A DNA stretch of 64,000 nt, taken from contig CANJLC010000004.1 of assembly GCA_947475445.1 (NCBI GenBank), positions 1 through 64,000 on the forward strand, in the 5' to 3' direction. Below are positions 10,901-34,644 of the stretch, piece by piece. The position numbers and the translations under genes are program-made. The notes below the pieces were generated by a model. That model had not been told where the DNA came from, did no database searches, and saw only the letters and a list, made by a program, of their open reading frames with translations. Position 1 is the first letter of the stretch, and every line of letters begins with the position of its first letter. This DNA comes from Alphaproteobacteria bacterium. GTDB taxonomy: Bacteria; Pseudomonadota; Alphaproteobacteria; Micropepsales; Micropepsaceae.

Positions 10901-11053
10901 ATAGAAAGTGTTCACCACCACGGCAGGCGGGGCGATGACGGGATATTGCTCCACCGGCAGCGAGAAGGCGGCGATGCCGCCCGCCAGCATGATCACGATG
11001 GCGATCACCCAGGCAAATACCGGGCGGTCGATAAAGAAGCGTGAAAGCCCCAT
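7934..11053 (-). CDS. RND multidrug efflux permease (HAE-1, AcrB/MexB type)
   Basis: 1039 residues, full length for the HAE-1 family of inner-membrane proton-driven drug exporters. It starts MGLSRFFIDRPVFAWV, the characteristic first transmembrane segment. It has the LVDDAIVVVENVER proton-relay region in TM4 (two adjacent Asp), large periplasmic loops and the FFVPVFFVLV last helix. It is transcribed 9 bp after its adaptor gene as one operon. No outer-membrane channel or TetR-type regulator is nearby, so the complex must borrow a TolC-like partner. Substrates cannot be predicted. Confidence 0.96.
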   Translation of the reverse strand: MGLSRFFIDRPVFAWVIAIVIMLAGGIAAFSLPVEQYPVIAPPAVVVNTFYPGADAETLQNSVTQVIEQQLTGLDNLLYFSSASNADGSVMITATFAAGTNPDIAQVQVQNKVQQAIPQLPSQVQQQGVTVTKAQSNFILIVAVYDDSGRYDNVDISDFLISKMQDPLSRVSGVGNVQVFGAQYAMRVWLDPYKLHDFGLMPSDIAAAIRAQNVQVSAGSIGQQPAAKGQQLNATVTAQSQLQTPEQFRNVILKTSASGAVVRLRDVARVELGADNYSIKSLFNGKPASGAAIMLAPGANALKTVDAVKARAESMRAQLPPGMKLSFPIDNTDYIRLSIRQVVETLIEAIILVVLVMYVFMQNWRTTLVPAVAVPVVLLGTFGVLAAFGYTINTLTLFALVLVIGLLVDDAIVVVENVERIMREEKLSPREATLKSMTEITGALIGIGLVLTAVFLPMAFFGGSTGVIYRQFSITIVSAMSLSIMCALVLTPALCATLLLPYSEADQGKGLLARFFAWFNRNFERMRESYRRGLGRTLRHQRWVMVVYALIVVLLGLLFYRMPTGFLPGEDQGMIMTLITLPPGATQDRTMNVAQDVAKHFLEEEKDNVDFVFTVAGFSFSGAGQNAGIAFARLSDWDKRKGKANSAEAIAQRAFFKFMMSPTAQIYPLVPPAVQELGMSNGFEIQLEDRGNVGHAGLIQARNMLLGMAAQDRATFAQVYPNSLDDTAQIHIDVDQGKANALGVSTADANATLSAAWGGNFVNNFIDRARVKRVYIQGDAPFRSAPQDLDRWYVRSANGAMAPFSSFAKVNWTVGPTTLTRYNGFGSIDIQGIPAAGVSTGTALAGIDKIFQKMPPGVGYELTGLSFQEAASGAQAPALYGLSILIIYLCLAALYESWAIPLSVMMVIPLGVIGAVIAASARGLFNDIYFQVGMLATIGLSAKNAILIVEFAVENEKQGMKAYDAALAAARMRLRPILMTSIAFIAGVFPLAIATGAGAGSQNDIGTGVIGGMLSATILAIFFVPVFFVLVNRGLQRHE

Positions 11054-11062
11054 GGGTGCCGC

Positions 11063-12133
11063 CTATGACTTGACGGGTTTTGCGGGGGTGGGCGTCACCG
11101 GCATGTCGGGCATCACTTTCTGCAAGCCCTCCACGATCATCTTGTCGCCGGGCTTGAGGCCATCCAGCACCTGCCAGTTGCCGTCCACGGCGCGGCCGGT
11201 CTTGAGGATGCGCAGGCGCGCAATGTTCTTTTCATCCAGCACCAGGGCGGTGGGTTCGCCCTTGGCGTCATGACCGACCGCAAGCTGCGGCACCAGGATG
11301 CCGTGTGGATCGGTGCCCTGGTTCACCGTGGCGCGGACATACAGTCCGGGCAACAGCAGGCCATCGGGATTGGGGAAGATGGCGCGCAGGCGCACCGCGC
11401 CAGTGGCGGGGTCCACCGTCACATCGGTGAATTGCAGCTTGCCCTTCTGGGCGTAATCGCTGCCGTCATCCAGCTTGAGCGACACTTCGGCGCCGCCGGC
11501 GGAAATATGACCGGCGCTCATGGCCCGCTTGAGCGCCAGCAGTTCGGCGCTGGACTGGTCGATGTCGACATAGATGGGATCAAGCGTGGAGATGACGGCC
11601 AGTGCGGTCGGCTGGTTCGCCGTCACCAGCGCGCCTTCGGTCACGCTGGAGGCGCCGATGCGCCCGGAGATGGGCGCTTCGATATGGGTATAGTTGAGGT
11701 TGATGCGCGCATTGTCGGCGGCGCCCTGCGCAGCCAGGTAGGCGGCGCGGGCGTCCTCGGCATCCTGGGGCGAGATGGCCGTGGCGGCCAGCAGGCGCGC
11801 ATAACGTTCGGCGCGGCTCTTGGCGCTGGCGAGCGTCGCTTCGGCGCTGGCCGCGGCGGCGCGATAGGGGCCTGGATCAATCTGGTAAAGCGCCTGGCCC
11901 TTCTTGACGAGCGCGCCTTCGGTGAAGAGCCGGCGCTGGACGATCCCGGTGATCTGGGGGCGCACTTCGGAGACGGCAAAGGCATTGGTGCGGCCGGGCA
12001 GTTCGGCGATCAGGGAGACAGGCTGTTCCTTGATGACGATGAAGCCCACCATCGGCGGGGGCATTTGCTGCTGCTTCTCCTGACCGCAGGCGCACAGGGC
12101 AAGCAAGGCAACAAGACCAAAACGACGTATCAT
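11063..12133 (-). CDS. RND efflux periplasmic adaptor (membrane fusion lipoprotein)
   Basis: 356 residues. The N-terminus MIRRFGLVALLALCACGQ looks like a lipoprotein signal peptide, with Cys16 the likely lipidated residue. The HlyD/AcrA domain order follows: barrel-sandwich with EVRPQITGIVQ, an alpha-hairpin (about 95-145), a second lipoyl half with THIEAPISGRIG, then beta-barrel and membrane-proximal domains. It links the permease to an outer-membrane channel. It is the first gene of a two-gene operon behind dusB. Confidence 0.94.
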   Translation of the reverse strand: MIRRFGLVALLALCACGQEKQQQMPPPMVGFIVIKEQPVSLIAELPGRTNAFAVSEVRPQITGIVQRRLFTEGALVKKGQALYQIDPGPYRAAAASAEATLASAKSRAERYARLLAATAISPQDAEDARAAYLAAQGAADNARINLNYTHIEAPISGRIGASSVTEGALVTANQPTALAVISTLDPIYVDIDQSSAELLALKRAMSAGHISAGGAEVSLKLDDGSDYAQKGKLQFTDVTVDPATGAVRLRAIFPNPDGLLLPGLYVRATVNQGTDPHGILVPQLAVGHDAKGEPTALVLDEKNIARLRILKTGRAVDGNWQVLDGLKPGDKMIVEGLQKVMPDMPVTPTPAKPVKS

Positions 12134-15477: not shown

Positions 15478-15608
15478 CCAGGCAGCGGCCCATTTGCCCC
15501 AGGGGGTGGCAAGAATGTCGCATTTAGCCCCGGGTTCCATGGCCGAAGCTTCTTCCCCGCGCCCGGCGCCTTTATGTATATAGAGTGCGTCCAGTGGGGG
15601 CACCGGAT

Positions 15609-16781
15609 ATGAGCATGGCCTTGATTTCGATGGAGTTTGGCTGGTTTCTGGCAGTGCTTGCCCTGTGCGGCGGGCTGTACACGATCATGGCCGCCTTTGT
15701 CGCCGGACGCTTCATGCTGCGCGGCACAGCGCCCCGCACCACCCTTCTGGCGCCTGTCACCATCCTCAAGCCGCTGTACCTGGACGAGCCGGGCCTGCTG
15801 GAAAATCTGGAAAGCTTTTTCCTCCAGGACTATGCCGCGCCGGTGCAGATCGTGTTCGGCGTGCATGACCGCTCCGATCCGGCCGCCTTTGTGGTGCGCG
15901 CCCTGCAGGAAAAATATCCCGGCCGCGATATCGCCATCGTGGCGGAGACGGCGATGTACGGCGCCAACGCCAAGGTTTCCAACCTCATCAACATGCTGCC
16001 CGCGGCCCGGCACGACATACTGGTGCTGAGCGACAGCGACATCGCCGTGCCGAAAAACTGGCTTGCCGCCGTGACAGCCACATTGGCGCAGCCGGGCGTT
16101 GGCCTTGTCACCTGCCTTTACAAGGGCGAAGCCGGCGCCCGCGGCTTGTGGGCCAGGCTGGCGGCGATGGGCATCACCTATGACTTCATGCCCAAGGCCG
16201 TCACCGGGGCATCGCTTGGCCTGGCCGAGCCCTGCATGGGCTCCACCATCGCGCTCACCCGCACCACGCTGGAAATGATAGGCGGCTTTACCGCCTTCGC
16301 CGACTACCTGGCCGATGATTATGAAATGGGCCGGGCGGTGCGCGGGCTGGGCCTGAAGCTTGCCATGCCGGCATTGGCCGTCAGCCACAGCGCCTCCGAG
16401 ACCAGCCTGTCCGAGTTGTTCCAGCACGAACTGCGCTGGACCCGCACCATCCGCCGCATCAACCCGGTCGGGCATGCGGGCAGCATCATTACTTTTGCCT
16501 TGGCGCTGGCCCTGATGTCCGCCTTTTTGCTGGATTTCAGCGCTCTGGGCCTGACTGTGCTGGGATTGGCCCTTGGCGCGCGGCTGTTTCTGAAGTACCG
16601 GATCGACAGCATTTTCGCCACCAAAGCGGGACCGTTCTGGCTTTTGCCCTTGCGGGATATGCTCAGTTTCGCGGTTTTCGTGGCGTCAATGTTCGGTGAG
16701 ACAGTGCATTGGCGGGGAACCCGCCTGTCGGTCCAGCGCAGTGGCGTTATTTCTTCTGAATCGGTTGAGGCAATCCAATGA
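15609..16781 (+). CDS. hpnI: Hopanoid glycosyltransferase HpnI
   Basis: 390 residues, a family-2, ceramide-glucosyltransferase-like membrane enzyme. In Burkholderia HpnI adds N-acetylglucosamine to bacteriohopanetetrol. An N-terminal hydrophobic helix (about 5-30) precedes the GT-A domain: VTILKPLY, LSDSDIAVP (metal-binding Asp motif) and the acceptor-side HELRWTRTIRRI (QxxRW-like). Two or three C-terminal membrane helices follow. I chose ATG 15609 (MSMALISMEF) because a GGGGG stretch lies about 9 bp upstream; the frame also opens at GTG 15585. The stop overlaps the hpnJ start (ATGA). Confidence 0.93.
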   Translation: MSMALISMEFGWFLAVLALCGGLYTIMAAFVAGRFMLRGTAPRTTLLAPVTILKPLYLDEPGLLENLESFFLQDYAAPVQIVFGVHDRSDPAAFVVRALQEKYPGRDIAIVAETAMYGANAKVSNLINMLPAARHDILVLSDSDIAVPKNWLAAVTATLAQPGVGLVTCLYKGEAGARGLWARLAAMGITYDFMPKAVTGASLGLAEPCMGSTIALTRTTLEMIGGFTAFADYLADDYEMGRAVRGLGLKLAMPALAVSHSASETSLSELFQHELRWTRTIRRINPVGHAGSIITFALALALMSAFLLDFSALGLTVLGLALGARLFLKYRIDSIFATKAGPFWLLPLRDMLSFAVFVASMFGETVHWRGTRLSVQRSGVISSESVEAIQ

Positions 16782-18205
16782 TGAAATCCCTTTTCCTCCA
16801 GGCTCCGTCCTTTGACGGCTATGACGGCGGCGCCGGCGCGCGCTACCAGATGAAGCGCGAGGTGAAGTCATTCTGGTTCCCCACCTGGCTGGCCCAGGCC
16901 GCCGTGATGGTGCCGGGCTCCAAGATCATTGACGCCCCGCCGCACAACACTTCCTTCAAGGACATTGAAGAAGACGTGAAGGCGCATGAGCTGATCGTCA
17001 TCCACACCTCAACACCCAGCTTCAAGTCGGACTGCCGCACGGCCGTGATGATCCGGGCCATCAACCCCAATGCCAAGATCGGCTTCATCGGCGCCAAGGT
17101 GGCGGTCGAGCCGGAGCAGAGCATGGCGGCTTGCCCCGCGCTCGATTTCGTCTGCCGCAACGAATATGAATTCACCATCCAGGAACTGGCCAGCGGCAAC
17201 GACTGGTCCACCATCAAGGGCCTGACCTGGCGCAATGAATCGGGCGAGATCGTCTCGAACCCCGAGCGCGAAATCCTGATGGACATGGACAAGCTGCCCT
17301 CGGTGCTGCCCGTCTACAAGCAACTCGACATCTCCAAATATTTCGGCGGCTACCTGCTGCACCCCTACATGTCCTGGTACACGGGCCGCGGCTGCAAGTC
17401 GCGCTGCACCTTCTGCCTGTGGCCCCAGACCATTGGCGGCCACAATTACCGCTTCAAGTCGATCGAGCGGGTGGTCGAGGAAGTGAAATATGTGAAAGAG
17501 AATTTCCCGCAGGTGAAGGAAATCTTCTTCGACGACGATACGCTGACCGACAATCATGACCGCGTGGAAAAACTGGCCGCCGAACTGGGCAAGCTGAACG
17601 TGGTGTGGTCGTGCAATGCCAAGGCGAATGTGCCGCGCAAGACGCTGGAAGCCATGAAGAAAGGCGGCCTGCGCTTGCTGCTGGTCGGTTATGAATCCGG
17701 CAACCAGCAGATCCTGCACAACATCAAGAAGGGCCTGCTGGTGCCTGTCGCCAAGCGCTTCGCCAGGGACTGCCACGATCTGGGCATTGTCGTGCACGGC
17801 ACCTTCATCCTGGGCCTGCCCGGCGAAACCCGCGAGACCATCCAGGAAACCCTGTCCTTCGCCAAGGAAGTCAATCCGCACACCATCCAGGTGTCGCTGG
17901 CGGCGCCCTATCCCGGCACCTTCCTTTACAAGCAGGCCAAGGAAAATGGCTGGTTCGCCAGCGACGTGGACCTTCTGACCGATGACGGCACGCAGATCGC
18001 GCCGCTCAACTATCCGCATCTGGGCCACACGGAAATCTTCGAGTCGGTGGAGACCTTCTACAAGAAGTTCTATTTCCGTCCCTCCAAGATCATGGAGATC
18101 GTGAAGGAGATGCTCACCTCGCGCGACATGATGGTGCGCCGCCTGCGCGAAGGGGTGGAGTTCTTCCAGTTCCTGCGCCATCGCGAAGACATGATCGTCT
18201 CCTAG
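16778..18205 (+). CDS. hpnJ: Hopanoid radical SAM protein HpnJ
   Basis: 475 residues. It has an N-terminal cobalamin-binding-like domain (about 1-160) and a radical SAM core with the cluster motif CKSRCTFC (CxxxCxxC) at about residues 207-214, a TYR-type C-terminal extension following. HpnJ is needed to turn the amino-sugar headgroup of bacteriohopanetetrol into the cyclitol ether. It overlaps hpnI by 4 bp and is followed after 3 bp by hpnK, so the three headgroup genes are one unit. Confidence 0.95.
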   Translation: MMKSLFLQAPSFDGYDGGAGARYQMKREVKSFWFPTWLAQAAVMVPGSKIIDAPPHNTSFKDIEEDVKAHELIVIHTSTPSFKSDCRTAVMIRAINPNAKIGFIGAKVAVEPEQSMAACPALDFVCRNEYEFTIQELASGNDWSTIKGLTWRNESGEIVSNPEREILMDMDKLPSVLPVYKQLDISKYFGGYLLHPYMSWYTGRGCKSRCTFCLWPQTIGGHNYRFKSIERVVEEVKYVKENFPQVKEIFFDDDTLTDNHDRVEKLAAELGKLNVVWSCNAKANVPRKTLEAMKKGGLRLLLVGYESGNQQILHNIKKGLLVPVAKRFARDCHDLGIVVHGTFILGLPGETRETIQETLSFAKEVNPHTIQVSLAAPYPGTFLYKQAKENGWFASDVDLLTDDGTQIAPLNYPHLGHTEIFESVETFYKKFYFRPSKIMEIVKEMLTSRDMMVRRLREGVEFFQFLRHREDMIVS

Positions 18206-18208
18206 GAC

Positions 18209-19051
18209 GTGAAGCAGCTTGTCATCACGGCGGATGACTTTGGCGCCGCCGAAGCAGTCAACATCGCTGTGGAGCGGACCCATGAAAATGGCATCCTCAC
18301 TGCCGCCAGCCTGATGGTGTCGGGCGCCGCCGCCAGTGATGCGGTACGCCGCGCCCGCGCGCTTGCGTCTTTGCGCGTTGGGTTGCACCTGGTGCTGGTG
18401 GATGGAAAGCCGATCCTGCCCGCTGCAAGCGTGCCTGCCCTTGTGGATGGGCGCGGCCATTTCCGCAATGACATGGCGCGGGCAGGGGCCGCCATGTTCT
18501 TTTTCCCCGCGGTGCGCCGCCAACTGGAAGCGGAGATCGCGGCCCAGTTCGAGGCTTTCGCCGCCACGGGACTCAAGCTCGACCATGTCAATGCGCACAA
18601 GCATTTCCATCTCCATCCCACCATCGCAGGCCTGATCCTCAAGATCGGCAGGCAATATGGATTGCGCGGGGCGCGCGTGCCGCTGGAGCCGCAATCCGTG
18701 CTGGGCAAAATCGAAATGCATGGCGCCTCCGGCACCGTGGCGCTGACCGCGCCCTTCGCGCGGATGTTGCGCAGCCGCTTTCGCCGCGCCGGCATCGCCG
18801 CTCCGGACCAGGTGTTCGGCCTGGCCTGGTCGGGGGCGATGACCGCGTCGCGGCTCGCCGGGCTGATAACCCATCTCCCCGAGGGGCTTTCGGAGATTTA
18901 TATGCACCCGGCCTTGGGCGAATATCCCGGCTCTGCGCCCGGGTATGGCTATGGCGCGGAAATGGCGGCTTTGACCGATCCGCGCATGAAAGAGCTGATT
19001 GCCGCAGGCGATATTCGTCTTGGCGGCTTTGGCGACTTTCCGGTACAATAG
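18209..19051 (+). CDS. hpnK: Hopanoid headgroup deacetylase HpnK (YdjC/ChbG family)
   Basis: 280 residues, GTG start (MKQLVITADDFGAA). The ITADDFG motif (Asp metal ligands), GLHLVLV and DHVNAHKHFHLHP are the YdjC/ChbG carbohydrate deacetylase signatures. In hopanoid synthesis HpnK removes the acetyl group from the GlcNAc added by HpnI, giving the glucosamine form used by HpnJ. It follows hpnJ by 3 bp. The 48-bp gap after it contains the ribosome binding site of the first ferritin-like gene. Confidence 0.94.
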   Translation: MKQLVITADDFGAAEAVNIAVERTHENGILTAASLMVSGAAASDAVRRARALASLRVGLHLVLVDGKPILPAASVPALVDGRGHFRNDMARAGAAMFFFPAVRRQLEAEIAAQFEAFAATGLKLDHVNAHKHFHLHPTIAGLILKIGRQYGLRGARVPLEPQSVLGKIEMHGASGTVALTAPFARMLRSRFRRAGIAAPDQVFGLAWSGAMTASRLAGLITHLPEGLSEIYMHPALGEYPGSAPGYGYGAEMAALTDPRMKELIAAGDIRLGGFGDFPVQ

Positions 19052-19099: not shown

Positions 19100-20008
19100 A
19101 TGAGCAGTCCGGCCTTCGCCATACCACCTGATTTGACTCGCGATACCGGCTTGTGGCCGGGCAACGGGCCGATCAAATTCGGCTCGGACGAGCACAAAAG
19201 GCTCTTCTGCAAGACGTTGCTTGATACCCACGATCCCTACAGGCCGGCAGTGCTCGACTGGCCCAAGCTGGGCGAGGAAGCCGAAAAACGCATCACAGCC
19301 CTGCCCATCTGGGACATCGCCGTTCAGACGGAAAACCGCGCCGGTCTGAATGTCTGCACCTATGCCGAAGGCGTGCCCGATCCCCTGCTGAAGAAAGCCA
19401 TCGAGCTGAACGGCTTCGAGGAACGCCGCCACCGCCATGTGCTGGCCAATTTGGTGGAGGCTTACGGCATCAAGCTGGCGCCGGAACCGGTTTACGAAAA
19501 GCCGAAAAATCCCGAATGGGCCTTCCTGGTCACCGGCTACAGCGAATGCATCGACAGCTTCTTCGCCTTCGGCCTGTTCAAGGCGGCCAAGGACACGGGC
19601 TATTTCCCGCCCGAGCTGGTGGAGACCTTTGATCCGGTGGTGAATGAGGAAGCGCGCCACATCCTGTTCTTCGTCAACTGGGTGGCCTGGCATCGCCGCA
19701 ACATGCCACTTTGGCGCCGTCCCTATTTCGAACTCAAGGTGCTCGCGGTCTGGATCTTCCTGGTCTATGAGCGCATGGGCATCGCTTCGGATGTCTCCAA
19801 TGGCCAGCAGGACAACAATTTCACCGTCAACGGCGCCGAGGCGCTGGGATCTGATGTCGATGTGGGCGAGCTGATCGCCTTGTGCGTGGGGGAAAATGAC
19901 CGCCGACTGGCGCCGTTCGACGCCCGGCTGAAGCGCCCGCGCTTCGTGCCCTTCCTGGCACGCATCGCGCTGAAATTCATCGGACCGAAAAAGAAAGTCG
20001 CAGCATGA
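19100..20008 (+). CDS. Ferritin-like diiron protein A in the hopanoid cluster
   Basis: 302 residues, predicted soluble. I recognise no named family beyond the ferritin-like four-helix fold. The diiron ligand pattern is complete: E78, E108-x2-H111, E149, E184-x2-H187, with the last site in the stretch NEEARHILFFVNW. Such a set fits an oxygenase, desaturase or oxidase better than an iron-storage protein. It lies between hpnK and hpnL on the same strand and overlaps its paralogue B by ATGA, so co-expression with hopanoid genes is very likely. Role in hopanoid or squalene oxidation is inference. Confidence 0.85.
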   Translation: MSSPAFAIPPDLTRDTGLWPGNGPIKFGSDEHKRLFCKTLLDTHDPYRPAVLDWPKLGEEAEKRITALPIWDIAVQTENRAGLNVCTYAEGVPDPLLKKAIELNGFEERRHRHVLANLVEAYGIKLAPEPVYEKPKNPEWAFLVTGYSECIDSFFAFGLFKAAKDTGYFPPELVETFDPVVNEEARHILFFVNWVAWHRRNMPLWRRPYFELKVLAVWIFLVYERMGIASDVSNGQQDNNFTVNGAEALGSDVDVGELIALCVGENDRRLAPFDARLKRPRFVPFLARIALKFIGPKKKVAA

Positions 20009-20853
20009 AAATCGGATCCCAGGAACATCGCGACGCTTTCTGCAGCCACTTCATGCGGACCTATACCGAGTTCGATCCGGACACGCTGCCCTGGCCGGAA
20101 CTGGACGAGGCCGCGCTGACGCGCCTCAAATCCGTCCCCTTCTGGGAAGAGGTCTTCTATACCGAGCGCAGGGCCGGGGCGATTGTCGCTGCCTTTACCG
20201 AGACCATCACCGACCCGGTGCTGAAAGAGGCGGTGGTGCTGCAGGGGCTGGAAGAAGCCCGCCACGCCAAGATGATCCGGGTGATGATCCAGAAATACAA
20301 TATCGACGCCGCCGAGCGTCCGCTGGAAGACGTTTCGGACAATGTCGAGACCCGGTTCAAGGATTTCGGCTTTGGCGAATGCATGGATTCCTTCCTGGGC
20401 TTCGGCGTTTTCAAGATCGCCATGCAGTCCCAATTCCTGCCCAAGGAGATGTTCTCCATCTTCGAAACCCTGATGTATGAGGAGACGCGGCACATCGTCT
20501 TCTTCGTCAACTGGATGGCCTATACCCAGGCGCGCAAGGGCTTCTTCGCCCGCCTGCTGCTGCCGCTGACCAGCTTTCGTTATTACATGCGCGCCTTGGG
20601 CCGCATGGTCGGCACCGCCAAGCGCGGCAAGGAGCTGAATGACGGCAAGGAATTCACCGCCACCCAGGCCAGTGTCTTCCTGGACGGATTCACCTTCCGC
20701 CGTTTCCTGGAAGATTGCTATTCCGAGAACCGCCGCCGCATGGGCGCGTTCGACGCGGAATTGCTGCGTCCCTCTTTCCTGCCCCAGCTGGCCGAAACTG
20801 CGCTGGGCGCCATGCGCCTGTGGAGCTTCCGCGCCAAGCCGCTGCCCGTCTGA
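20005..20853 (+). CDS. Ferritin-like diiron protein B in the hopanoid cluster
   Basis: 282 residues, a paralogue of the preceding protein: the same helices and the same ligands, E54, E84-x2-H87, E125, E160-x2-H163, with YEETRHIVFFVNW matching the A copy. It lacks the first 24 or so residues of A and has a somewhat longer C-terminal part. Both copies keep all ligands, so neither looks like a dead duplicate; they may form a heterodimer or act on successive intermediates. It overlaps A by 4 bp and is followed 5 bp later by hpnL. Function unknown. Confidence 0.85.
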   Translation: MKIGSQEHRDAFCSHFMRTYTEFDPDTLPWPELDEAALTRLKSVPFWEEVFYTERRAGAIVAAFTETITDPVLKEAVVLQGLEEARHAKMIRVMIQKYNIDAAERPLEDVSDNVETRFKDFGFGECMDSFLGFGVFKIAMQSQFLPKEMFSIFETLMYEETRHIVFFVNWMAYTQARKGFFARLLLPLTSFRYYMRALGRMVGTAKRGKELNDGKEFTATQASVFLDGFTFRRFLEDCYSENRRRMGAFDAELLRPSFLPQLAETALGAMRLWSFRAKPLPV

Positions 20854-20858
20854 CCCTT

Positions 20859-21836
20859 ATGAAATGGGGACCCAAGATCGGCGTCGGCGTTGCGCTGCTG
20901 GCGGGCCTGGTCGCTGCCATCTATGTGGTCTGGGTGATCGGCTTTGGCGCCGTGCTGTCCGCCATTGTCCGCGCCGGGTTCGGCGGGCTGGCGCTGCTGT
21001 GCCTCTATGCGCTGTCGGTGTTCATTTGGCTGGCCTATGCCTGGTACTTCCTGCTGCCCCCGGCGCAGCGGCGCTCCCTTCCTGATCTTTACATCGCACG
21101 GCTGGTGCGCGATTCCATTGCCGAGATTTCGCCCTTCTCGCCGGTGGGCGGCATGATGGCCGCCGCCCGGCTGATGATCCTGAAGGGCATGAATACCGCC
21201 TATGCCGCCGCCTCCATGGCGGCCGACGCCACCACCGAGGCCATGGCGCAAGTGGTCTTTCTCGCCTTTGGCCTGGGCTGGGGCTTTACGCAGTTCCAGC
21301 ATCTGCAGGGCAGCGGTCCGGTGACAAGGGCCATGGTCGCGGTGCTGCTGCTGGCGGTGCCGGGCATTGCGCTGCTGATATTCCTGCAGAAGCGCGGCGC
21401 CGCCTTTGCCGAGAAAATCGCGGCGCGCTTCTTCCCGCAGGTCCGCGAAGGCATTTCCTTCCACGCCGCGATTGAAGACCTTTATGATTCACCTTCCCGG
21501 CTGGCTGCATCGGCGGCGCTGCATCTGCTGGCCTGGATCGGGGCAGGCGGCGGCACCTATATCGCATTCCTGCTGGTGGGCGGAAAAATCACCCTGCTCA
21601 ACGCCATCGCGCTGGAAGCGCTTCTTTGCACCATCCGCAGCATCGCGGCCTTTGTCCCCGCCGCCATCGGCGTGCAGGAAGCCGGCTATGCCATGCTGGC
21701 GCCGCTGTTCGGCCTTCCCGCCGAAATGGGCGTGGCGGTGTCGCTGCTCAAGCGGGCGCGGGAAATCGTCCTGGGTGTGCCGGCCTTGCTCTATTGGCAG
21801 GCGGTGGAAAGCCGCAAGGTTTTCGTCAATGAGTGA
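20859..21836 (+). CDS. hpnL: Hopanoid-cluster membrane protein HpnL
   Basis: 325 residues of the lysylphosphatidylglycerol-synthase-like (UPF0104) transmembrane family, with about seven or eight hydrophobic segments and the typical LxxFVPAAIGVQEAGY stretch at about 270. HpnL genes co-occur with hopanoid synthesis; the protein is thought to be a membrane transporter or flippase component, not proven. I take ATG 20859 (MKWGPKIGVG), directly after the previous gene; a longer in-frame extension overlaps that gene and is an artefact. The end overlaps hpnA by 8 bp. Confidence 0.9.
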   Translation: MKWGPKIGVGVALLAGLVAAIYVVWVIGFGAVLSAIVRAGFGGLALLCLYALSVFIWLAYAWYFLLPPAQRRSLPDLYIARLVRDSIAEISPFSPVGGMMAAARLMILKGMNTAYAAASMAADATTEAMAQVVFLAFGLGWGFTQFQHLQGSGPVTRAMVAVLLLAVPGIALLIFLQKRGAAFAEKIAARFFPQVREGISFHAAIEDLYDSPSRLAASAALHLLAWIGAGGGTYIAFLLVGGKITLLNAIALEALLCTIRSIAAFVPAAIGVQEAGYAMLAPLFGLPAEMGVAVSLLKRAREIVLGVPALLYWQAVESRKVFVNE

Positions 21837-22821
21837 CACGCTATTGGTGACAGGCGCTTCAGGGTTTGTTGGCGCTGCCGTGGCAAGGGCTGCCGTGGCG
21901 CGGGGCTTTAAGACCCGGGTGCTGATGCGGCCCACCGCTTCGCGCGCCAATGTCGAAGGCCTGGACGTCGAGATTGTTTCCGGCGACATGCGCGACACCG
22001 CCTCCATGACGGACGCCTTGCAGGGCGTGCGTTATTTTTTCCACGTCGCAGCCGATTACCGTCTGTGGGCGCGGGATCCGGGCGAGATTGAGCGCAACAA
22101 TCTGCAGGGCGCCCGCGCCACCATGCAGGCAGCCTTGGCGGCGGGCGTCGAGCGGGTGGTCTATACGTCTTCCGTTGCCGCCCTGAAGCCGGGCGATGGC
22201 CAGGCGGTGGATGAAACTTCGCGCCACTCGCCCCAAAGCGTGATCGGCGCCTACAAGCGCAGCAAGCTGGTGGCAGAACGTGAAGTCGAACGCATGATCG
22301 CGCAGGAAAAACTTCCCGCCGTGATCGTGGCGCCGTCCACGCCCATTGGCGCGCGCGACATCAAGCCCACGCCCACCGGCCGCATCATTGTCGAAGCTGC
22401 CACGGGAAAGATTCCCGCCTTTGTGGATACGGGCCTCAACCTGGTGCATGTCGACGATGTCGCGGAAGGTCATTTTCTGGCGCTGGAAAAAGGCGTGATC
22501 GGCGAGAATTACATATTGGGCGGCGAGGATGTCAGCCTCCAAACCATGCTGGCCGACATCGCGCAAATGACGGGCCGCCGCGCGCCCACCCTCACGCTGC
22601 CGCGCGCGCCCCTGTTCCCCCTGGCCTGGGGCGCGGAAATGGTGGCACGCCTTACCGGCAAGGAGCCGTTCCTCACGGCGGATGCCTTGCGCATGTCGCG
22701 CTACCGGATGTTTTTCTCCTCGGCCAAGGCGAAGGCGCAACTGGGCTACCAGGCGCGTCCCTATCGTGAAGGCCTTGGCGATGCGCTGGGATGGTTTTCC
22801 GCCAACGGGTACCTCAAATGA
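21829..22821 (+). CDS. hpnA: Hopanoid-associated sugar epimerase HpnA
   Basis: 330 residues of the extended short-chain dehydrogenase family. It has the NAD-binding LLVTGASGFVGAAVA at residues 4-18 and the catalytic Y-x3-K in AYKRSKLVAE at about 142-146. It is the NAD-dependent epimerase/dehydratase found in hopanoid clusters; its sugar substrate is not established. The start ATGAGTGAC lies inside the hpnL end (8-bp overlap), and the stop overlaps the hpnB start. The long upstream extension of the frame belongs to hpnL in another frame. Confidence 0.94.
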   Translation: MSDTLLVTGASGFVGAAVARAAVARGFKTRVLMRPTASRANVEGLDVEIVSGDMRDTASMTDALQGVRYFFHVAADYRLWARDPGEIERNNLQGARATMQAALAAGVERVVYTSSVAALKPGDGQAVDETSRHSPQSVIGAYKRSKLVAEREVERMIAQEKLPAVIVAPSTPIGARDIKPTPTGRIIVEAATGKIPAFVDTGLNLVHVDDVAEGHFLALEKGVIGENYILGGEDVSLQTMLADIAQMTGRRAPTLTLPRAPLFPLAWGAEMVARLTGKEPFLTADALRMSRYRMFFSSAKAKAQLGYQARPYREGLGDALGWFSANGYLK

Positions 22822-23957
22822 TCGAGGCCGTGCTGCTGGGATTCCTGCCGCTGGCAATCTGGCTTTATCTGCTGCTGGGCCGCGATGGGTTCTGGCGAAT
22901 GAATGAGCGCGATACGCGGGACGTTCCGCCGATGCCCGCAACCTGGCCGCCGGTGGTGGCCGTGGTGCCGGCCCGCAACGAAGCGGACGTGATTGCGCAA
23001 AGCATCGGCAGCCTTTTGATGCAGGATTATCAGGGTGATTTTCGCATCATGCTGGTGGATGACCAGTCGGATGACGGTACCGGCGACCTGGTCCGCTCCC
23101 TGGGTTCCGGCAGGCTCACTGTCATCGGCGGCGCCCCGCGGCCGCCGGGCTGGACCGGCAAGCTCTGGGCGATGAAGCAGGGTGTGGCGCAGGCTTCCAG
23201 CCTCGCACCGGAATTTCTCTGGCTGACCGATGCCGATATCGCCCACGCGCCCGACAATCTCACCCAACTGGTGGCGCGGGCGCAGAGCGGCAACAAGGCG
23301 ATGGTTTCGCTGATGGCGCGCCTGTCCTGCCGCACCGGGCCTGAGCATTTCCTGATTCCCGCTTTTGTGTTTTTCTTCGACATGCTGTTTCCCTTCGGCG
23401 CAGTGAACAATCCGGCCGGTCCCGTGGCGGCGGCGGCGGGCGGCTGCATGCTGGCGCGGCGAAGCGCATTGGAGGCCGCTGGCGGTATCGACTCCATCCG
23501 CCACAACATCATTGACGATTGCGCCCTGGCGCGCGCGATGAAGGCGCAAGGCCCGATCTGGCTGGGCCTGACGGACCGATCTGTCTCGCTGCGCCCCTAT
23601 GAGCGTCTGTCCGACATCCGCCACATGGTGTCGCGCAGCGCCTATGCCCAGCTGGGTTATTCGCCCCTGGCCCTGGCCGGGACATTGCTGGGGCTTTTCC
23701 TGGTCTATATTGCGCCGGTGCTGGTGGCCCTGTTCGCATGGAATTATGTCCAGATGGCGGGTTGGGCCGCCTGGATCATCATGGCGGCGATGTTCCAGCC
23801 CATACTGCGTTTCTATCGCCTGTCGCCGCTTTGGGGTTTCGCCTTGCCGCTGATCGGGGCTTTCTATGCCGGCTTCACCCTGGATTCGGCCATCCAGTAC
23901 TGGTCGGGCAAGGGCGGCATGTGGAAGGGCCGGGCGCAAGCCGGCGAAAAGGCATGA
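22818..23957 (+). CDS. hpnB: Hopene-associated glycosyltransferase HpnB
   Basis: 379 residues from ATG 22818 (MIEAVLLGFLP). It is a family-2 membrane glycosyltransferase with an N-terminal hydrophobic helix, VAVVPARNEADVI at about 46-58, the metal motif LTDADIAH, and QxxRW-like positions replaced by DDCALARAMK. C-terminal membrane segments lie near 290-355. It co-occurs with hopanoid genes, but no acceptor has been proven. ATGA overlaps on both sides (hpnA and hpnC) place it in the main operon. Confidence 0.93.
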   Translation: MIEAVLLGFLPLAIWLYLLLGRDGFWRMNERDTRDVPPMPATWPPVVAVVPARNEADVIAQSIGSLLMQDYQGDFRIMLVDDQSDDGTGDLVRSLGSGRLTVIGGAPRPPGWTGKLWAMKQGVAQASSLAPEFLWLTDADIAHAPDNLTQLVARAQSGNKAMVSLMARLSCRTGPEHFLIPAFVFFFDMLFPFGAVNNPAGPVAAAAGGCMLARRSALEAAGGIDSIRHNIIDDCALARAMKAQGPIWLGLTDRSVSLRPYERLSDIRHMVSRSAYAQLGYSPLALAGTLLGLFLVYIAPVLVALFAWNYVQMAGWAAWIIMAAMFQPILRFYRLSPLWGFALPLIGAFYAGFTLDSAIQYWSGKGGMWKGRAQAGEKA

Positions 23958-24799
23958 GCGGCGAAGGGCTTCAATCCGGCAAGGATCACACCAAGGAAAA
24001 TTTCCCCGTCGCCTCGTTCCTGATTGCGCCGCGGCACCGTGCGCCGGTGATGGCCTTCTACAATTTCGTGCGCTTCGCCGACGACATCGCCGATCACCCC
24101 GCCGCCGCGCCTTCCGAAAAACTGCGCTTGCTGGAAGAAATGCGCGCCACGCTGGTGGGGGAAAGCGATGCCTCGCCCGAAGGCGTGGCGCTGCGCACGA
24201 TTTTGAAAGAGCGAAATCTTTCGCCGGTCCACGCCCTTGACCTGCTGGAAGCCTTCCGCCGCGATGTGACCAAGCTGCGATACCAGGACTGGGATGACCT
24301 GCTGGATTATTGCCGTTATTCGGCCATGCCGGTGGGGCGCTTTGTGCTGGATGTGCATGGCGAGAGCCAAACGACCTGGCCGGCCAATGACGCGCTGTGC
24401 GCCGCACTTCAAATCATCAACCACCTGCAGGATTGCGCCAAGGATTACCGTGAACTGAACCGAGTCTACATTCCCGAAGCCCTGCTGGCCGGGGCTGGCA
24501 TGGACGCCCTGGCCCAGCCCAAGGCCAGCCCCGCCCTCCTGGCGGTGATTGCCGGATTGGCGCGGAAAAATGCGCTTTTGCTTGGGGAATCGGCTGTCTT
24601 TGCGCGGCAGATCCGGGACACAAGGCTTGCCTTGGAAGTCGATCTCATTCAAACCCTCGCCGAAGATTTGAACGCCAAATTGACCCGCCGCGATCCCTTG
24701 TCCCAGACCGTGCACCATTCCAAATTCAACGTTGCGGCGCTGTTCCTGGCGCGGCTGCCGGTCTTTGCTTTTCGCCGCCTGACCATGAGCGCGCCATGA
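23954..24799 (+). CDS. hpnC: Squalene synthesis protein HpnC (hydroxysqualene synthase)
   Basis: 281 residues of the squalene/phytoene synthase superfamily. With HpnD and HpnE it makes squalene from farnesyl diphosphate: HpnC converts presqualene diphosphate to hydroxysqualene. The first Asp-rich motif is FADDIADH (about 37-44); the second region reads HLQDCAKDY. Start at 23954 (MSGEGLQSGK), overlapping the hpnB stop. The order hpnC-hpnD-hpnE is the standard bacterial three-gene squalene route. Confidence 0.95.
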   Translation: MSGEGLQSGKDHTKENFPVASFLIAPRHRAPVMAFYNFVRFADDIADHPAAAPSEKLRLLEEMRATLVGESDASPEGVALRTILKERNLSPVHALDLLEAFRRDVTKLRYQDWDDLLDYCRYSAMPVGRFVLDVHGESQTTWPANDALCAALQIINHLQDCAKDYRELNRVYIPEALLAGAGMDALAQPKASPALLAVIAGLARKNALLLGESAVFARQIRDTRLALEVDLIQTLAEDLNAKLTRRDPLSQTVHHSKFNVAALFLARLPVFAFRRLTMSAP

Positions 24800-25641
24800 C
24801 CGAGACCATGCACGCGCCGCAATCCAAGGCGGTCAAGAAGAAAGCCAGCGGCAGTTCCTTCTATACCGCCATGCGCCTGATGCCGAAAAGCGAGCGCGAC
24901 GCCATGTTCGCGATCTATGCTTTTTGCCGCAAGGTGGACGACATCGCCGATGACGGAATCGGCACGCGGCCCGAGCGCCATGAGAAACTGGAAAGCTGGC
25001 GCGCCGACCTGGACGCGCTGTATGCAGGATCGCCGCCGCCGCGCGCCGCCTTCCTGGCCGCGGCCGTGGCGCAATATGGCCTGCGCAAGGAAGACTTCCG
25101 CACCATCCTGGACGGCATGGACATGGATGTGACGGAGGATATCGTCGCGCCCGACCTGCCCACGCTGGATTTGTATTGCGAGCGCGTCGCCAGCGCCGTG
25201 GGTCGCCTGTCCATCAAGGTGTTCGGTATGGAGGAAGAGCCCGGTTTCAAGCTGGCGCATCATCTGGGGCGCGCCTTGCAGCTGACCAATATCCTGCGCG
25301 ACATTGACGAAGATGCCGATATCGGCCGGCTGTATTTGCCGCGGGAATATCTTTTCGCGGCGGGCTTCAAGTCGCTCGACCCCAGGATGGTGGTGTCCGA
25401 CCCGCGCATCGACACGGTCTGCCGCCAGGTGGCGGCGCTGGCGCATGATCACTATGACAAGGCGCAGGCCGTCCTGACGGCAAAGCCCAAGGGCCGCATC
25501 GCAACGCCTTGGCTGATGGGCGCGGTCTATTCCGAAATCCTCAGCGCCACGGAAGCGGCAGGCTTCGCGCCGCCCCGCCGCCGCGTTTCGCTGGGCAAGG
25601 GCAAGCTCCTGTCGCTGGTGCTGCGCTCCAAATTCTTATGA
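24796..25641 (+). CDS. hpnD: Presqualene diphosphate synthase HpnD
   Basis: 281 residues. It condenses two farnesyl diphosphates head to head to presqualene diphosphate. Both Asp-rich motifs are clear: RKVDDIADD (about 50-58) and LRDIDEDAD (about 170-178). It is closer to phytoene synthases than HpnC is. It overlaps hpnC and hpnE by 4 bp each. Confidence 0.96.
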   Translation: MTETMHAPQSKAVKKKASGSSFYTAMRLMPKSERDAMFAIYAFCRKVDDIADDGIGTRPERHEKLESWRADLDALYAGSPPPRAAFLAAAVAQYGLRKEDFRTILDGMDMDVTEDIVAPDLPTLDLYCERVASAVGRLSIKVFGMEEEPGFKLAHHLGRALQLTNILRDIDEDADIGRLYLPREYLFAAGFKSLDPRMVVSDPRIDTVCRQVAALAHDHYDKAQAVLTAKPKGRIATPWLMGAVYSEILSATEAAGFAPPRRRVSLGKGKLLSLVLRSKFL

Positions 25642-26904: not shown

Positions 26905-28836
26905 ATGAACCAGCTTTCCCCGGGCCAATTCAGCGAACTGGACGGCAGCATCCGCGCCGCCACGGAGGCCGTGCTGGCGCAGCAGCGTGCCGACGGTCAC
27001 TGGGTTTATGAACTGGAAGCCGACGCCACCATCCCGGCGGAATATGTCCTGCTGGTGCATTATCTGGCCGAAACGCCCAACCTGGAACTGGAGCGCAAGA
27101 TCGGCGTCTATCTGCGCCGCATCCAGGGCAAGCATGGCGGCTGGCCGCTCTACCACGAAGGCGCTTTCGACATTTCCGCCACCGTGAAAGCCTATTTTGC
27201 GCTCAAGATGATTGGCGACGACATCAATGCGCCGCACATGGTGCGGGCGCGCCAGGCGCTGCAGGAACGCGGCGGCGCCATCAAGGCCAATGTCTTCACC
27301 CGCATTCTCTTGGCCCTCTATGGCCAGACGTCCTGGGCCAATGTGCCCACCGTGCCGGTGGAGCTGATCCTGCTGCCGCGCTGGTTTCCGGTGCATTTGT
27401 CCAAGATGAGCTACTGGGCGCGCACCGTGATCGTGCCGCTGCTGGTGCTTTGCGCGCGCCAGCCCTTGGCGCGCAATCCGCGCGGCATCCATATTGCTGA
27501 ACTGTTTGTGCCGGGCGTCGGCGCCGCCAGTCCCCGCGCGCCGCACCAGAGCGCCGGTTGGTCGGCTTTCTTCAATCTGCTGGACAAGATTCTCAAGATC
27601 GTGCCTTGGCCAAAGGGCTTGCGCAAAAAGGCGATCGAGAAATGCCGCGCCTGGACGACCGAGCGCCTGAACGGCGAAGACGGGTTGGGCGCCATCTATC
27701 CCGCCATGGCCAACAGCGTGATGATGTATGACCTGCTGGGCTATGCGCCCGACCATCCCGACCGGGCCATTGCCCGCAAATCGGTGGAAAATCTTTTGGT
27801 CATTAAGGCGGACGAAGCCTATTGCCAGCCTTGCGTTTCGCCGGTCTGGGACACCGGGCTGGTGGCGCATGCGCTGCTGGAAACCGGCGACGCCAGGGCC
27901 GAAGCTGCTGCCGTTCGCGGGCTGGAATGGCTGAAGCCGCTGCAGGTGCTGGATGTGAAAGGGGACTGGGCCGAGGAAAAACCCGATGTGCGGCCCGGCG
28001 GCTGGGCCTTTCAGTATCGCAACGACTATTACCCCGATCTCGACGATACCGCCGTGGTGGTGATGGCGATGGACCGGGCGCAGAAACGCGGCTTGGCCGG
28101 CGGCTATGACAATGCCATCGCGCGCGGCGCGGAATGGGTGGACGGCCTGCAAAGCCGGGGCGGCGGCTGGGGCGCTTTCGATGCCGACAATTCCTATTAC
28201 TACCTCAACAATATTCCCTTCGCCGATCACGGCGCGCTGCTCGACCCGCCCACGGAAGATGTCTCGGGCCGCTGCGTCGGCATGATCGCCCAGCTTGGCG
28301 GCGACAAGGCGCGGCTGGATGCGGGCGTGCAATATCTGATCCGGACGCAGATGAAAGACGGCAGCTGGTGGGGCCGCTGGGGCGTGAACTATATCTACGG
28401 CACCTGGTCGGCGCTGGCGGGTCTGAATGGCGCCGGCCTTGCGCCCGAACACGCCACCATCAGGCGCGGCGCGGACTGGCTGGTGCAGATCCAGAATCCC
28501 GATGGCGGCTGGGGCGAGAATTGCGACAGCTACAAGCTGGATTACAAGGGCTATGAACCCGCGCCCTCCACCGCGTCACAAACGGCCTGGGCGATCCTGG
28601 GCCTGATGGCGGCAGGGCAGGTGGATCATCCCGCCGTGGCGCGCGGCGTCGCGTGGCTGTTCGCCAACCAGGCTCCCGACGGGCTGTGGGAGCAGGCGCA
28701 TTATACCGGCGGTGGTTTTCCGCGCGTCTTTTACCTCAACTATCACGGCTATCCGAAGTTCTTCCCGCTCTGGGCGCTGGCGCGTTACCGCAATCTCAAA
28801 AGCGGCAATTCGCGGCGCGTCGAGCACGGCCTATGA
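26905..28836 (+). CDS. shc: Squalene-hopene cyclase
   Basis: 643 residues, normal length. It cyclises squalene to hopene and hopanol at the inner membrane. The protonating DxDD motif is in DLDDTAVV (about 377-384). Several QW repeats are visible, for example GGGWGAFD, NPDGGWGEN and APDGLWEQ. Start at 26905 (MNQLSPGQFSEL), 7 bp after hpnE; the longer frame upstream belongs to an alternative reading of hpnE. The stop overlaps the hpnG start by 4 bp. Confidence 0.97.
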   Translation: MNQLSPGQFSELDGSIRAATEAVLAQQRADGHWVYELEADATIPAEYVLLVHYLAETPNLELERKIGVYLRRIQGKHGGWPLYHEGAFDISATVKAYFALKMIGDDINAPHMVRARQALQERGGAIKANVFTRILLALYGQTSWANVPTVPVELILLPRWFPVHLSKMSYWARTVIVPLLVLCARQPLARNPRGIHIAELFVPGVGAASPRAPHQSAGWSAFFNLLDKILKIVPWPKGLRKKAIEKCRAWTTERLNGEDGLGAIYPAMANSVMMYDLLGYAPDHPDRAIARKSVENLLVIKADEAYCQPCVSPVWDTGLVAHALLETGDARAEAAAVRGLEWLKPLQVLDVKGDWAEEKPDVRPGGWAFQYRNDYYPDLDDTAVVVMAMDRAQKRGLAGGYDNAIARGAEWVDGLQSRGGGWGAFDADNSYYYLNNIPFADHGALLDPPTEDVSGRCVGMIAQLGGDKARLDAGVQYLIRTQMKDGSWWGRWGVNYIYGTWSALAGLNGAGLAPEHATIRRGADWLVQIQNPDGGWGENCDSYKLDYKGYEPAPSTASQTAWAILGLMAAGQVDHPAVARGVAWLFANQAPDGLWEQAHYTGGGFPRVFYLNYHGYPKFFPLWALARYRNLKSGNSRRVEHGL

Positions 28837-29489
28837 CGATCATTGCTGTCTGCGGCCTGACGCGCGAAGCCAGAATTGCCGGCGGCGAAGGCGTGATCGC
28901 GGTAGCCGGCGGCGGCGATGCGGAAGGCCTCGCGAAAAAGCTGGATGCCCTGCATGGCGACATCACCGGGGTGATTTCCATCGGCCTGGCGGGCGCGCTG
29001 TCGCCGCACCTGAAGGTGGGCGATGTGGTCATTGCGGACCGCATCCTGGCGCCTGAAGACACATTTTCTTGCGATAATCTCTGGCGCGTGGCCCTGGCGG
29101 CGCGGCTGAAGGGTGCGCACCAAGGCGCGCTTGTGGGCAGCGACGCCATCGTGCCCGATGCCGCTTCCAAGACGGCGCTTTTTGATACCAGCGGCGCCCT
29201 GGCGGTGGACATGGAAAGCCAGGTGGCGGCGCGCTTTGCGGCGGGACGGGGCGTCAAGCTGGCGGGCCTGCGGGTGATTTCCGACGATGCGTCTCACGTG
29301 CTGCCGCCGGCTGCACTGGTCGCCATGGCGCCGGACGGCGGCATCGCGCTCAGCCGCGTGCTGTGGTCGGTGGTGAAAAACCCGCTGCAGATACCGGCGC
29401 TGATCCGCACTGGCCGGACGTCCAGCAAGGCGATTGCGGAATTACTCCGCTGCCGCAACCTCTGTGGCGCCAATCTCGGTGGTGTTTGA
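28833..29489 (+). CDS. hpnG: Adenosylhopane nucleosidase/phosphorylase HpnG
   Basis: 218 residues of the purine nucleoside phosphorylase/MTA-SAH nucleosidase fold. HpnG removes adenine from adenosylhopane to give the ribosyl (phospho) hopane precursor of bacteriohopanetetrol. ISIGLAGALSPHLKVGDVVIAD is the family's ligand-binding core and VDMESQ the ribose-binding motif. The start at 28833 overlaps shc. The last 48 bp overlap the end of hpnH on the opposite strand. Confidence 0.93.
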   Translation: MTIIAVCGLTREARIAGGEGVIAVAGGGDAEGLAKKLDALHGDITGVISIGLAGALSPHLKVGDVVIADRILAPEDTFSCDNLWRVALAARLKGAHQGALVGSDAIVPDAASKTALFDTSGALAVDMESQVAARFAAGRGVKLAGLRVISDDASHVLPPAALVAMAPDGGIALSRVLWSVVKNPLQIPALIRTGRTSSKAIAELLRCRNLCGANLGGV

Positions 29490-30602
29490 CTTGCCGGCCT
29501 TGATCGCGGAAATCTTCTGCTCGACATGACGGGCAAAGAAGAACTCTGCCGGACGCTGTTTTGACAGGTCGATATCCGGGGCCATCGGGCCTTCGGTCTT
29601 CACGCCGCGCATCAGGATGGGCAGCATCTTGAGCGGATGCTTCAGGGCGTCAGTGGCAGCGGTGCCTTCAAAGCCGCAATGCACCATGCAGTTGGCGCAT
29701 TTCTCATATTTGCCGACGCCGTACTTTTCCCATTCCGTGCCTTCCATCAGCTCGGTAAAGGTCTCGGCATAGCCTTCGCCCAGCAGATAGCAGGGCTTCT
29801 GCCAGCCAAACACGGTCAGCAGCGGCATGGACCAGGGGGTGCATTCATAGGTCTGGTTGCCGGCCAAAAAGTCCATGAACAGCGAAGAGTTGGTGAAATC
29901 CCAATTCTTGCCGCCATTGCCGCGGGCCAGGATTTCGCGAAACATCTTCTTGGTGCGTTCGCGGTTGAGGAAATGCTCCTGGTCGGGCGCGCGCTCATAG
30001 GCATAGCCCGGCGACACGGTCATGCCGTCCACGCCCAGTTCCATCATGTGATCGAAGAAGGCGGCGGTGCGGTCCGGATCGGAGCCGTCGAACAAAGTGC
30101 AGTTGATCTGGGTGCGAAAGCCGCGTTCCTTGGCCAGCTTGATGGCGGCCACGGCCTTGTCATAGGTGCCGTCCAGGCAGACCGACTTGTCGTGCATCGC
30201 CTTGTCGCCATCCAGGTGGATCGACCAGGTGAAATTGGGGTGCGGCTCATACTGGTCGATCTTCTTGGCCAGCAGCAACGCGTTGGTGCAAAGGATCACG
30301 AACTTGTCGCGCTCGATATAGCCCCTGACGATCTTGGCCATGTCCCTGTGCAGCAGCGGTTCGCCGCCGGCGATGGAGACGGCCGGCGCGCCGCATTCGT
30401 CGATCGCGGCCATGCACTGGTCATAGGACAGGCGCTGGTTCAGGATTTCATCGGGATAGTCGATCTTGCCGCAACCGGCGCAGGCCAGGTTGCAGCGGAA
30501 CAGCGGCTCCAGCATCAGCACCAGCGGGTATTTGCCGCCGGACAGATGCTTCTTCATCACATAGGCGCCGATCTTGGCGGCCTGGCGAAAGGGAAGTCCC
30601 AT
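29442..30602 (-). CDS. hpnH: Adenosylhopane synthase HpnH (radical SAM)
   Basis: 386 residues. It attaches a 5'-deoxyadenosyl group to diploptene, the first side-chain extension step, before HpnG. The cluster motif is CNLACAGC (CxxxCxxC) at about 37-44. A C-terminal CANCMVHCGFEG stretch (about 310-321) could bind a second metal centre, as in SPASM-like extensions; that part is inference. It forms a minus-strand pair with ispH (3-bp gap). Its 3' end overlaps the 3' end of hpnG by 48 bp. Confidence 0.96.
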   Translation of the reverse strand: MGLPFRQAAKIGAYVMKKHLSGGKYPLVLMLEPLFRCNLACAGCGKIDYPDEILNQRLSYDQCMAAIDECGAPAVSIAGGEPLLHRDMAKIVRGYIERDKFVILCTNALLLAKKIDQYEPHPNFTWSIHLDGDKAMHDKSVCLDGTYDKAVAAIKLAKERGFRTQINCTLFDGSDPDRTAAFFDHMMELGVDGMTVSPGYAYERAPDQEHFLNRERTKKMFREILARGNGGKNWDFTNSSLFMDFLAGNQTYECTPWSMPLLTVFGWQKPCYLLGEGYAETFTELMEGTEWEKYGVGKYEKCANCMVHCGFEGTAATDALKHPLKMLPILMRGVKTEGPMAPDIDLSKQRPAEFFFARHVEQKISAIKAGKSNTTEIGATEVAAAE

Positions 30603-34564: not shown

Positions 34565-34644
34565 GTCCCCACAATTTTGCCGTGTTGGCGCAGCAATATT
34601 TCCATTCGAGCGTTTTGGAAGGGCATTTTACCAGAGGTATTTTC

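Follow-up and report, generated by a model that had tools for sequence, protein, structure and literature searches.

Introduction

Ribonucleotide reductase R2 proteins (NrdB/NrdF) carry a diiron ligand pattern of E, ExxH, E, ExxH, and the R2lox proteins share the same diiron helix bundle. Desaturases occur among the soluble diiron proteins of this broad superfamily. Two further proteins were considered for comparison, the tRNA-modifying hydroxylase MiaE, which has tRNA as its substrate, and the N-oxygenase AurF (PF11583).

Bacteriohopanepolyols and their fossil products serve as markers of ancient bacteria and environments, and pentols and hexols make up a large share of some hopanoid profiles. 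A 2025 alphaproteobacterial survey called the genes for bacteriohopanepentol and bacteriohopanehexol unknown; its authors inspected the surroundings of hpn clusters and found no candidate there (PMC12583986). It covers 48 hopanoid-making strains; pentol plus hexol reach 90% in Sphingomonas mali and 77% in Enhydrobacter aerosaccus, while Novosphingobium rosa and Sphingomonas changbaiensis count as non-makers. The pentol cyclitol ether is recorded in the survey for 10 Rhodospirillales and 6 Sphingomonadales and for no Hyphomicrobiales, and the sole Hyphomicrobiales pentol/hexol value above 0 in its Table 3 is that of Enterovirga, at 1%. The passages on pentols in PMC8560942 give Acetobacter, Azotobacter vinelandii and Nostoc as characterised makers and report that B. 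cenocepacia likely contains the pentol cyclitol ether. According to PMC8590665 the pentol cyclitol ether is also made by Rhodopila. Nostoc has a different pentol, and Methylococcales make aminopentols.

A 64,000 nucleotide stretch of an alphaproteobacterial genome (contig CANJLC010000004.1, positions 1 to 64,000), here called the window, contains two genes, A and B, within a hopanoid cluster. The two genes belong to a genuine diiron family that has no name, is linked to hopanoids and split long ago into two branches. Searches of the open-access literature found no report of such genes and no connection of the R2-like fold with hopanoids.

Results

The gene pair and its cluster

An initial sequence-only reading had described two paralogous genes, overlapping by ATGA, between hpnK and hpnL. 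Open reading frames, BLASTP and NCBIfam scoring agreed with this description (Table 1). The overlap lies at 20005-20008. A and B share 34% identity over 267 aa (BLASTP, E 3e-60), and this paralogy rules out chance ORFs. When the organism's own genome was searched with A, the pair in the window gave the sole matches. Spacing between A and B was -4 to +1 nt in 25 of 26 distinct pairs from the window's order, the exception being L023 (genome G079) with 757 nt between the genes.

The gene order was hpnI, hpnJ, hpnK, A, B, hpnL, hpnA, hpnB, hpnC, hpnD, hpnE, shc, hpnG. This was followed by hpnH and ispH on the opposite strand and then by ispA, a dxs-like gene, hpnM and hpnN. The hpn cluster of the window is complete; for hpnC, hpnE and the dxs-like gene the names come from position and inspection of the sequence by eye, not from model scores. 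The convergent hpnG and hpnH genes share 48 bases at their 3' ends. Upstream of the cluster there are two genes recognised by eye as an RND efflux pump pair.

Table 1. Coordinates of the genes A and B and of neighbouring features in the window
Feature	Position	Strand	Basis
RND efflux pump gene pair	7934..12133	-	named by eye
hpnI	15585..16781	+	TIGR03472 over cut-off
hpnJ	16778..18205	+	TIGR03471 over cut-off
hpnK, directly upstream of A	18209..19051	+	TIGR03473, 362 bits vs cut-off 233
gene A, R2-like diiron protein, 302 aa	19100..20008	+	ligands E78, E108, H111, E149, E184, H187
gene B, paralogue of A, 282 aa	20005..20853	+	ligands E54, E84, H87, E125, E160, H163
hpnL, directly downstream of B	20859..21836	+	TIGR03476, 248 bits vs cut-off 196
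hpnA	21829..22821	+	TIGR03466 over cut-off
hpnB	22791..23957	+	TIGR03469 over cut-off
hpnD	24796..25641	+	TIGR03465 over cut-off
shc, squalene-hopene cyclase	26905..28836	+	TIGR01507 over cut-off
hpnG	28833..29489	+	TIGR03468 over cut-off
hpnH	29442..30602	-	TIGR03470 over cut-off
hpnM	34582..35247	+	TIGR03481, 162 vs 160 bits
hpnN, hopanoid transporter	35377..37983	-	NF052374 over cut-off

Protein family and diiron site

Neither A nor B had a match above cut-off in Pfam, NCBIfam or PHROG scans. On NCBIfam A matched zero models and B matched two weak, unrelated ones. The expectation that the pair falls outside the standard hpn genes held, as no curated NCBIfam hpn model fitted A, B or 8 relatives. 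A and B thus resemble the hpn genes in location and in presence with shc but differ in lying outside every curated hpn model.

The six ligands that had been assigned to each protein were numbered correctly. They were invariant in alignments of 31 and 20 rows, and every one of the 185 distinct homologues of at least 240 aa taken from the relatives' loci (149 A-like, 36 B-like) had them. Structure prediction, which had been proposed as a check, gave an R2-like fold for both proteins. The AlphaFold2 models were all-helical, with a mean pLDDT of 82.8 and pTM of 0.85 for A and of 88.2 and 0.86 for B. With this helical fold and the conserved E, ExxH, E, ExxH pattern, both proteins belong to the ferritin-like, R2-type diiron carboxylate proteins. 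The best PDB matches of both models were R2lox and ribonucleotide reductase R2, with Z values near 15 and rmsd 3-5 over some 200-240 residues. The top match of A was 6qrz (Z 15.5, rmsd 3.7, 213 aligned, 15% identity) and that of B was 7qbp (Z 15.3, rmsd 3.1, 202 aligned, 11% identity), both under R2lox; R2 proteins scored Z 14-15. All of the 50 matches listed were R2 or R2lox proteins, and that other families do not appear among them carries no weight. With Foldseek alone the A model gave E no better than 0.005. A Z of about 15 is only slightly above the helix-bundle background, but the long coverage and the ligand pattern agree with an R2-like fold.

Differences from both families were found at two positions. 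Five residues before the third ligand, in what we take to be the place of the tyrosine of the R2lox Tyr-Val crosslink, tyrosine was absent in all 185 homologues; at this position (144 in A) V, D, R, F or another residue was present. Four residues after the first ligand histidine, presumably the place of the R2 radical tyrosine, the residue was L in 147 and I in 38 of the 185. Some class I R2 proteins also lack the radical tyrosine. The R2lox model NF006200 gave one homologue 13 bits against a cut-off of 194, and unlike R2 genes A and B have hopanoid genes as neighbours. Since the ligands are kept and both tyrosine places hold other residues, both genes encode diiron proteins with an intact site that belong neither to the typical R2 proteins nor to R2lox.

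More distant similarities were weak. PDB sequence and profile searches gave no significant solved relative. MiaE was matched marginally by profiles A1 (E 0.012) and A6 (E 0.026) but not by the A-only profile A3. Ten of 20 diverse A proteins had weak AurF matches (best E 0.007), but the proteins of the window scored 12.3 (A) and 13.3 bits (B) against a gathering score of 29.6, outside the AurF family. Weak Rubrerythrin Pfam matches were likewise present in 10 of the 20. Such matches are expected for a far branch of the ferritin-like superfamily.

Co-occurrence with shc

In 96 genomes of the window's order, probably Micropepsales, A was found in 59 (a few fragments counted) and shc in 66 (64 over cut-off). 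shc was present in 58 of the 59 A-bearing genomes compared to 8 of the 37 without A. The sole A-bearing genome without shc (G078) is 58% complete.

Across the class 385 genomes were searched, two weak matches (G262 and G276, E above 1e-4) having been dropped beforehand. A strong match to the A+B profile was found in 27 and a shc match in 107 (102 over cut-off). The A-bearing genomes had shc in 25 of 27 cases and the others in 82 of 358. When the window's own order was left out, the counts were 20 of 22 (13 families) and 82 of 358, respectively. P values for these contrasts take no account of shared ancestry. The two A-bearing genomes without shc were G221 (74% complete) and G399 (92% complete). 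In genomes of other orders G160 alone showed hpn genes in the stretch viewed around A, so the co-occurrence with shc does not come from physical linkage.

A genome collection was searched with A-only patterns, and the best 80 of at least 560 relatives were used; this selection has no bearing on B-only genomes, Methylococcales, cyanobacteria or the strains of PMC12583986. They gave 50 A-bearing genomes (46 of 48 non-Burkholderiaceae loci and 4 of 32 Burkholderiaceae loci), 44 with shc over cut-off and 47 with any shc match. Eight of these genomes had been counted before in the other samples, seven recognised by identical DNA and L160 by identical shc coordinates; without these repeats shc was over cut-off in 37 of 42. 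All 12 isolate records among the 50 had shc over cut-off, and the six genomes without it were MAGs.

Widespread occurrence in organisms without shc would have counted against a tie to hopanoids and was not found: A-bearing genomes without detected shc were few and nearly all MAGs. The proposed tie is supported by position and, independently, by the presence of shc when A is unlinked.

Gene neighbourhood

In 55 of the 59 A-bearing genomes of the order, the contig that carries A also has hpnK, hpnJ or shc. G049 had A apart from an otherwise intact hpn cluster, and in G002, G003 and G058 A and the detected hpn genes were on different contigs. Two genomes (G066, G068) kept A with the genes from hpnL to shc while hpnJ and hpnK were located elsewhere. 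Three others, G042 (L071), G044 (L078) and G048 (L075), kept A and hpnJ without an HpnK match at cut-off; hpnI was also kept in L071 and L078. In Alphaproteobacteria of other orders A was mostly away from hpn genes, with the exception of G160, whose hpn cluster lies between A and B.

The best 80 of at least 560 loci comprised 26 with core hpn genes, 7 with only hpnL beside A and 47 with none. Six of the 26 (L148, L156, L158, L159, L181, L160) repeat genomes of the order. Five of the 7 hpnL-only neighbours were scored by NCBIfam and all five were over the HpnL cut-off. Burkholderiaceae accounted for 31 of the 47 hpn-free loci, which is 31 of their 32 loci, viewed up to 9 kb each side. All five A-bearing Sphingomonadales genomes had the order hpnK-A-hpnL (seed included; 4/4 non-seed); the taxonomic orders of such samples are named after the record titles of their seed genomes. 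The order hpnI-J-K-L-A was found in Azotobacter beijerinckii, Azomonas, Dyella and Nevskia. Cupriavidus had A-hpnB. Homologues mostly outside hopanoid clusters would have spoken against the tie, and this was seen in part: hpn genes stand beside A in several orders, but many relatives, in Burkholderiaceae and most non-order Alphaproteobacteria, lie outside hpn clusters.

No ferredoxin or reductase common to all A loci was seen among ten representatives of recurring neighbours, nine of them Pfam-matched, in a scan that used crude ORF calling in GC-rich DNA and left the largest neighbour groups unnamed. In Burkholderia cenocepacia (L138) a very long repetitive adhesin-like frame lies downstream of A, with no hpn genes there.

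A without B, fusion and loss

In a phylogenetic tree A and B formed two well separated groups (support 100/100), so their split is old. Every genome in which B was detected, 27 in the order and five outside it, also had A or a part of it, and the arrangement A-B-hpnL was found in five further loci. No B was detected in 32 of the 59 A-bearing genomes of the order or in 17 of the 22 elsewhere in the class. An obligatory A-B pair is ruled out by these genomes. The sequence-only reading had proposed a heterodimer or two successive reactions; this is not general, and because A is often without detected B neither arrangement is the core of the system.

In G425 (L113:8773-10722) A and B were fused in one stop-free frame, joined by an R- and A-rich linker of some 45 residues. 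The fusion was seen in one genome only and may be a sequencing error. Upstream of A the frame continues for about 700 codons that match no Pfam family, and this part is probably spurious.

Seven genomes of the order had a near full-length shc match and no A; an eighth, G005, had a shc fragment only. Remnants of A were present beside hpn genes in G026 (with TAG), G022 and G059. As A is absent or decayed in genomes that keep hpn genes, it is an accessory, losable step. The shc-bearing genomes without A and the remnants rule out squalene conversion or another core step, and squalene, which had been named as a possible substrate, is unlikely given the seven genomes that keep shc without A.

Discussion

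A, with B, is very probably a hopanoid-tailoring diiron enzyme. Side-chain hydroxylation is the best single guess for its reaction, at a probability of roughly 0.5. A and B would be O2-using diiron oxygenases that tailor finished bacteriohopanepolyols. A would hydroxylate C-31, next to the tetrol, and so convert bacteriohopanetetrol or its cyclitol ether to the pentol, while B would act on the next carbon (C-30, giving the hexol) or serve as a partner subunit of A. That the proteins activate O2 and hydroxylate, at which carbon they do so and how A and B share the work are inferences. In its most specific form the proposal is tentative: A may be the missing C-31 hydroxylase for pentols in Alpha-, Beta- and Gammaproteobacteria, with its paralogue B adding the C-30 hydroxyl of the hexol and both being O2-dependent, R2-like enzymes.

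The distribution of A agreed with that of pentol makers and non-makers by genus, family and order, and poorly in the Sphingomonadales counts. A was found in Azotobacter beijerinckii, B. cenocepacia, Roseomonas sp. E05 and two Acetobacteraceae MAGs, taxa that are the same as or related to pentol makers and are not the measured strains. In the order of Rhodoblastus sp. 17X3 150 genomes were searched and A was found in the seed only (0/149 non-seed); shc was matched in 31 of the 150 (27 over cut-off), with 26 over cut-off among the 149. Several observations stand against the proposal. The seed Rhodoblastus carries A though its order makes almost no pentol, and unsaturated hopanoids are also produced by many of the taxa with A, such as Acetobacteraceae and Burkholderia. 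The survey's authors, who inspected the hpn clusters of their strains, named no candidate. According to the survey (PMC12583986), the hopanoids of Rhizomicrobium palustre, which is probably related to the window organism, are nearly all tetrol cyclitol ether, with 1% pentol plus hexol. Muricoccus, a measured member of the Acetobacteraceae, has zero pentol in its Table 3.

Sphingomonadales agreed poorly. Of their 24 non-seed genomes in which shc was over cut-off, A was present in 4, a count for which up to 10 candidates per genome were scored, so that a few members were possibly missed. Table 3 of the survey shows pentols in 6 of 8 cultured shc-bearing Sphingomonadales (PMC12583986). From 4/24 against 6/8, A is not the sole pentol route in this order unless the sample misleads; it was drawn evenly over lineages and includes many small genomes and deep lineages. 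The four A-bearing genomes are 4.4-4.6 Mb. Another enzyme may serve in Sphingomonadales, or the reaction may differ.

Unsaturation offers a different explanation, in which A and B would be ring desaturases making delta-6 and delta-11 unsaturated hopanoids. Several Acetobacteraceae (PMC12583986 Table 3) and B. cenocepacia (PMC8560942), taxa carrying A, are reported to contain such hopanoids. Sphingomonadales, however, have A beside hpnK, and the eight cultured makers recorded in the survey are 0-1% unsaturated. Afipia (Hyphomicrobiales) is 43% unsaturated in the same source, yet A was found in none of the 149 non-seed genomes of the Rhodoblastus order. For part of the unsaturation step the survey proposes a sterol-desaturase-family protein (PMC12583986). 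On these figures the distribution of A fits pentols better than unsaturation, and ring desaturation is unlikely. The headgroup is another conceivable target: A directly follows hpnK in the window and in Sphingomonadales, and the weak AurF matches of half of the 20 members would suit an AurF-like N-oxygenase, or a ring hydroxylase, acting on the amino-sugar or cyclitol headgroup from HpnI, HpnK and HpnJ. But the AurF scores of the window proteins fall far below the cut-off, A stays with hpnL and shc in G066 and G068 where hpnJ and hpnK are elsewhere, and it is kept in the three genomes without an HpnK match at cut-off. Action on the headgroup is therefore distinctly unlikely.

Oxidation of a secondary alcohol needs no diiron enzyme, which argues against A as an oxidase making a 32-oxo intermediate that another enzyme would turn into the pentol by adding water or into 31-methyl hopanoids by adding a methyl group. 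There was also no obvious hydratase among the nine Pfam-named neighbours, a weak point as other neighbour groups are unnamed. In favour of such a route, its chemistry is the one preferred by the survey authors, and Zymomonas has a known 32-oxo hopanoid, according to PMC12583986; we regard it as quite improbable for A. That A and B do not act catalytically on hopanoids at all, and that the cluster merely carries them along as a sensor or as accessory proteins for iron or redox functions, would be consistent with the lack of a significant solved relative by sequence in the PDB searches. This is very improbable, given the strict conservation of all six ligands, the co-occurrence with shc even when A is unlinked and the fact that two distant orders have them between hpnK and hpnL.

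Side-chain hydroxylation, if it needs O2, would make pentols also an oxygen-linked marker. A conserved, hpn-linked diiron family that was not found, outside the seed, in the sampled and nearly pentol-free order makes the question of the pentol genes directly testable.

Two A genes stand isolated. That of Rhodoblastus sp. 17X3 (L182, L220) is the sole A in its sampled order, and that of L112 (genome G446) groups with Burkholderia and Cupriavidus in the tree. Both were perhaps acquired by transfer.
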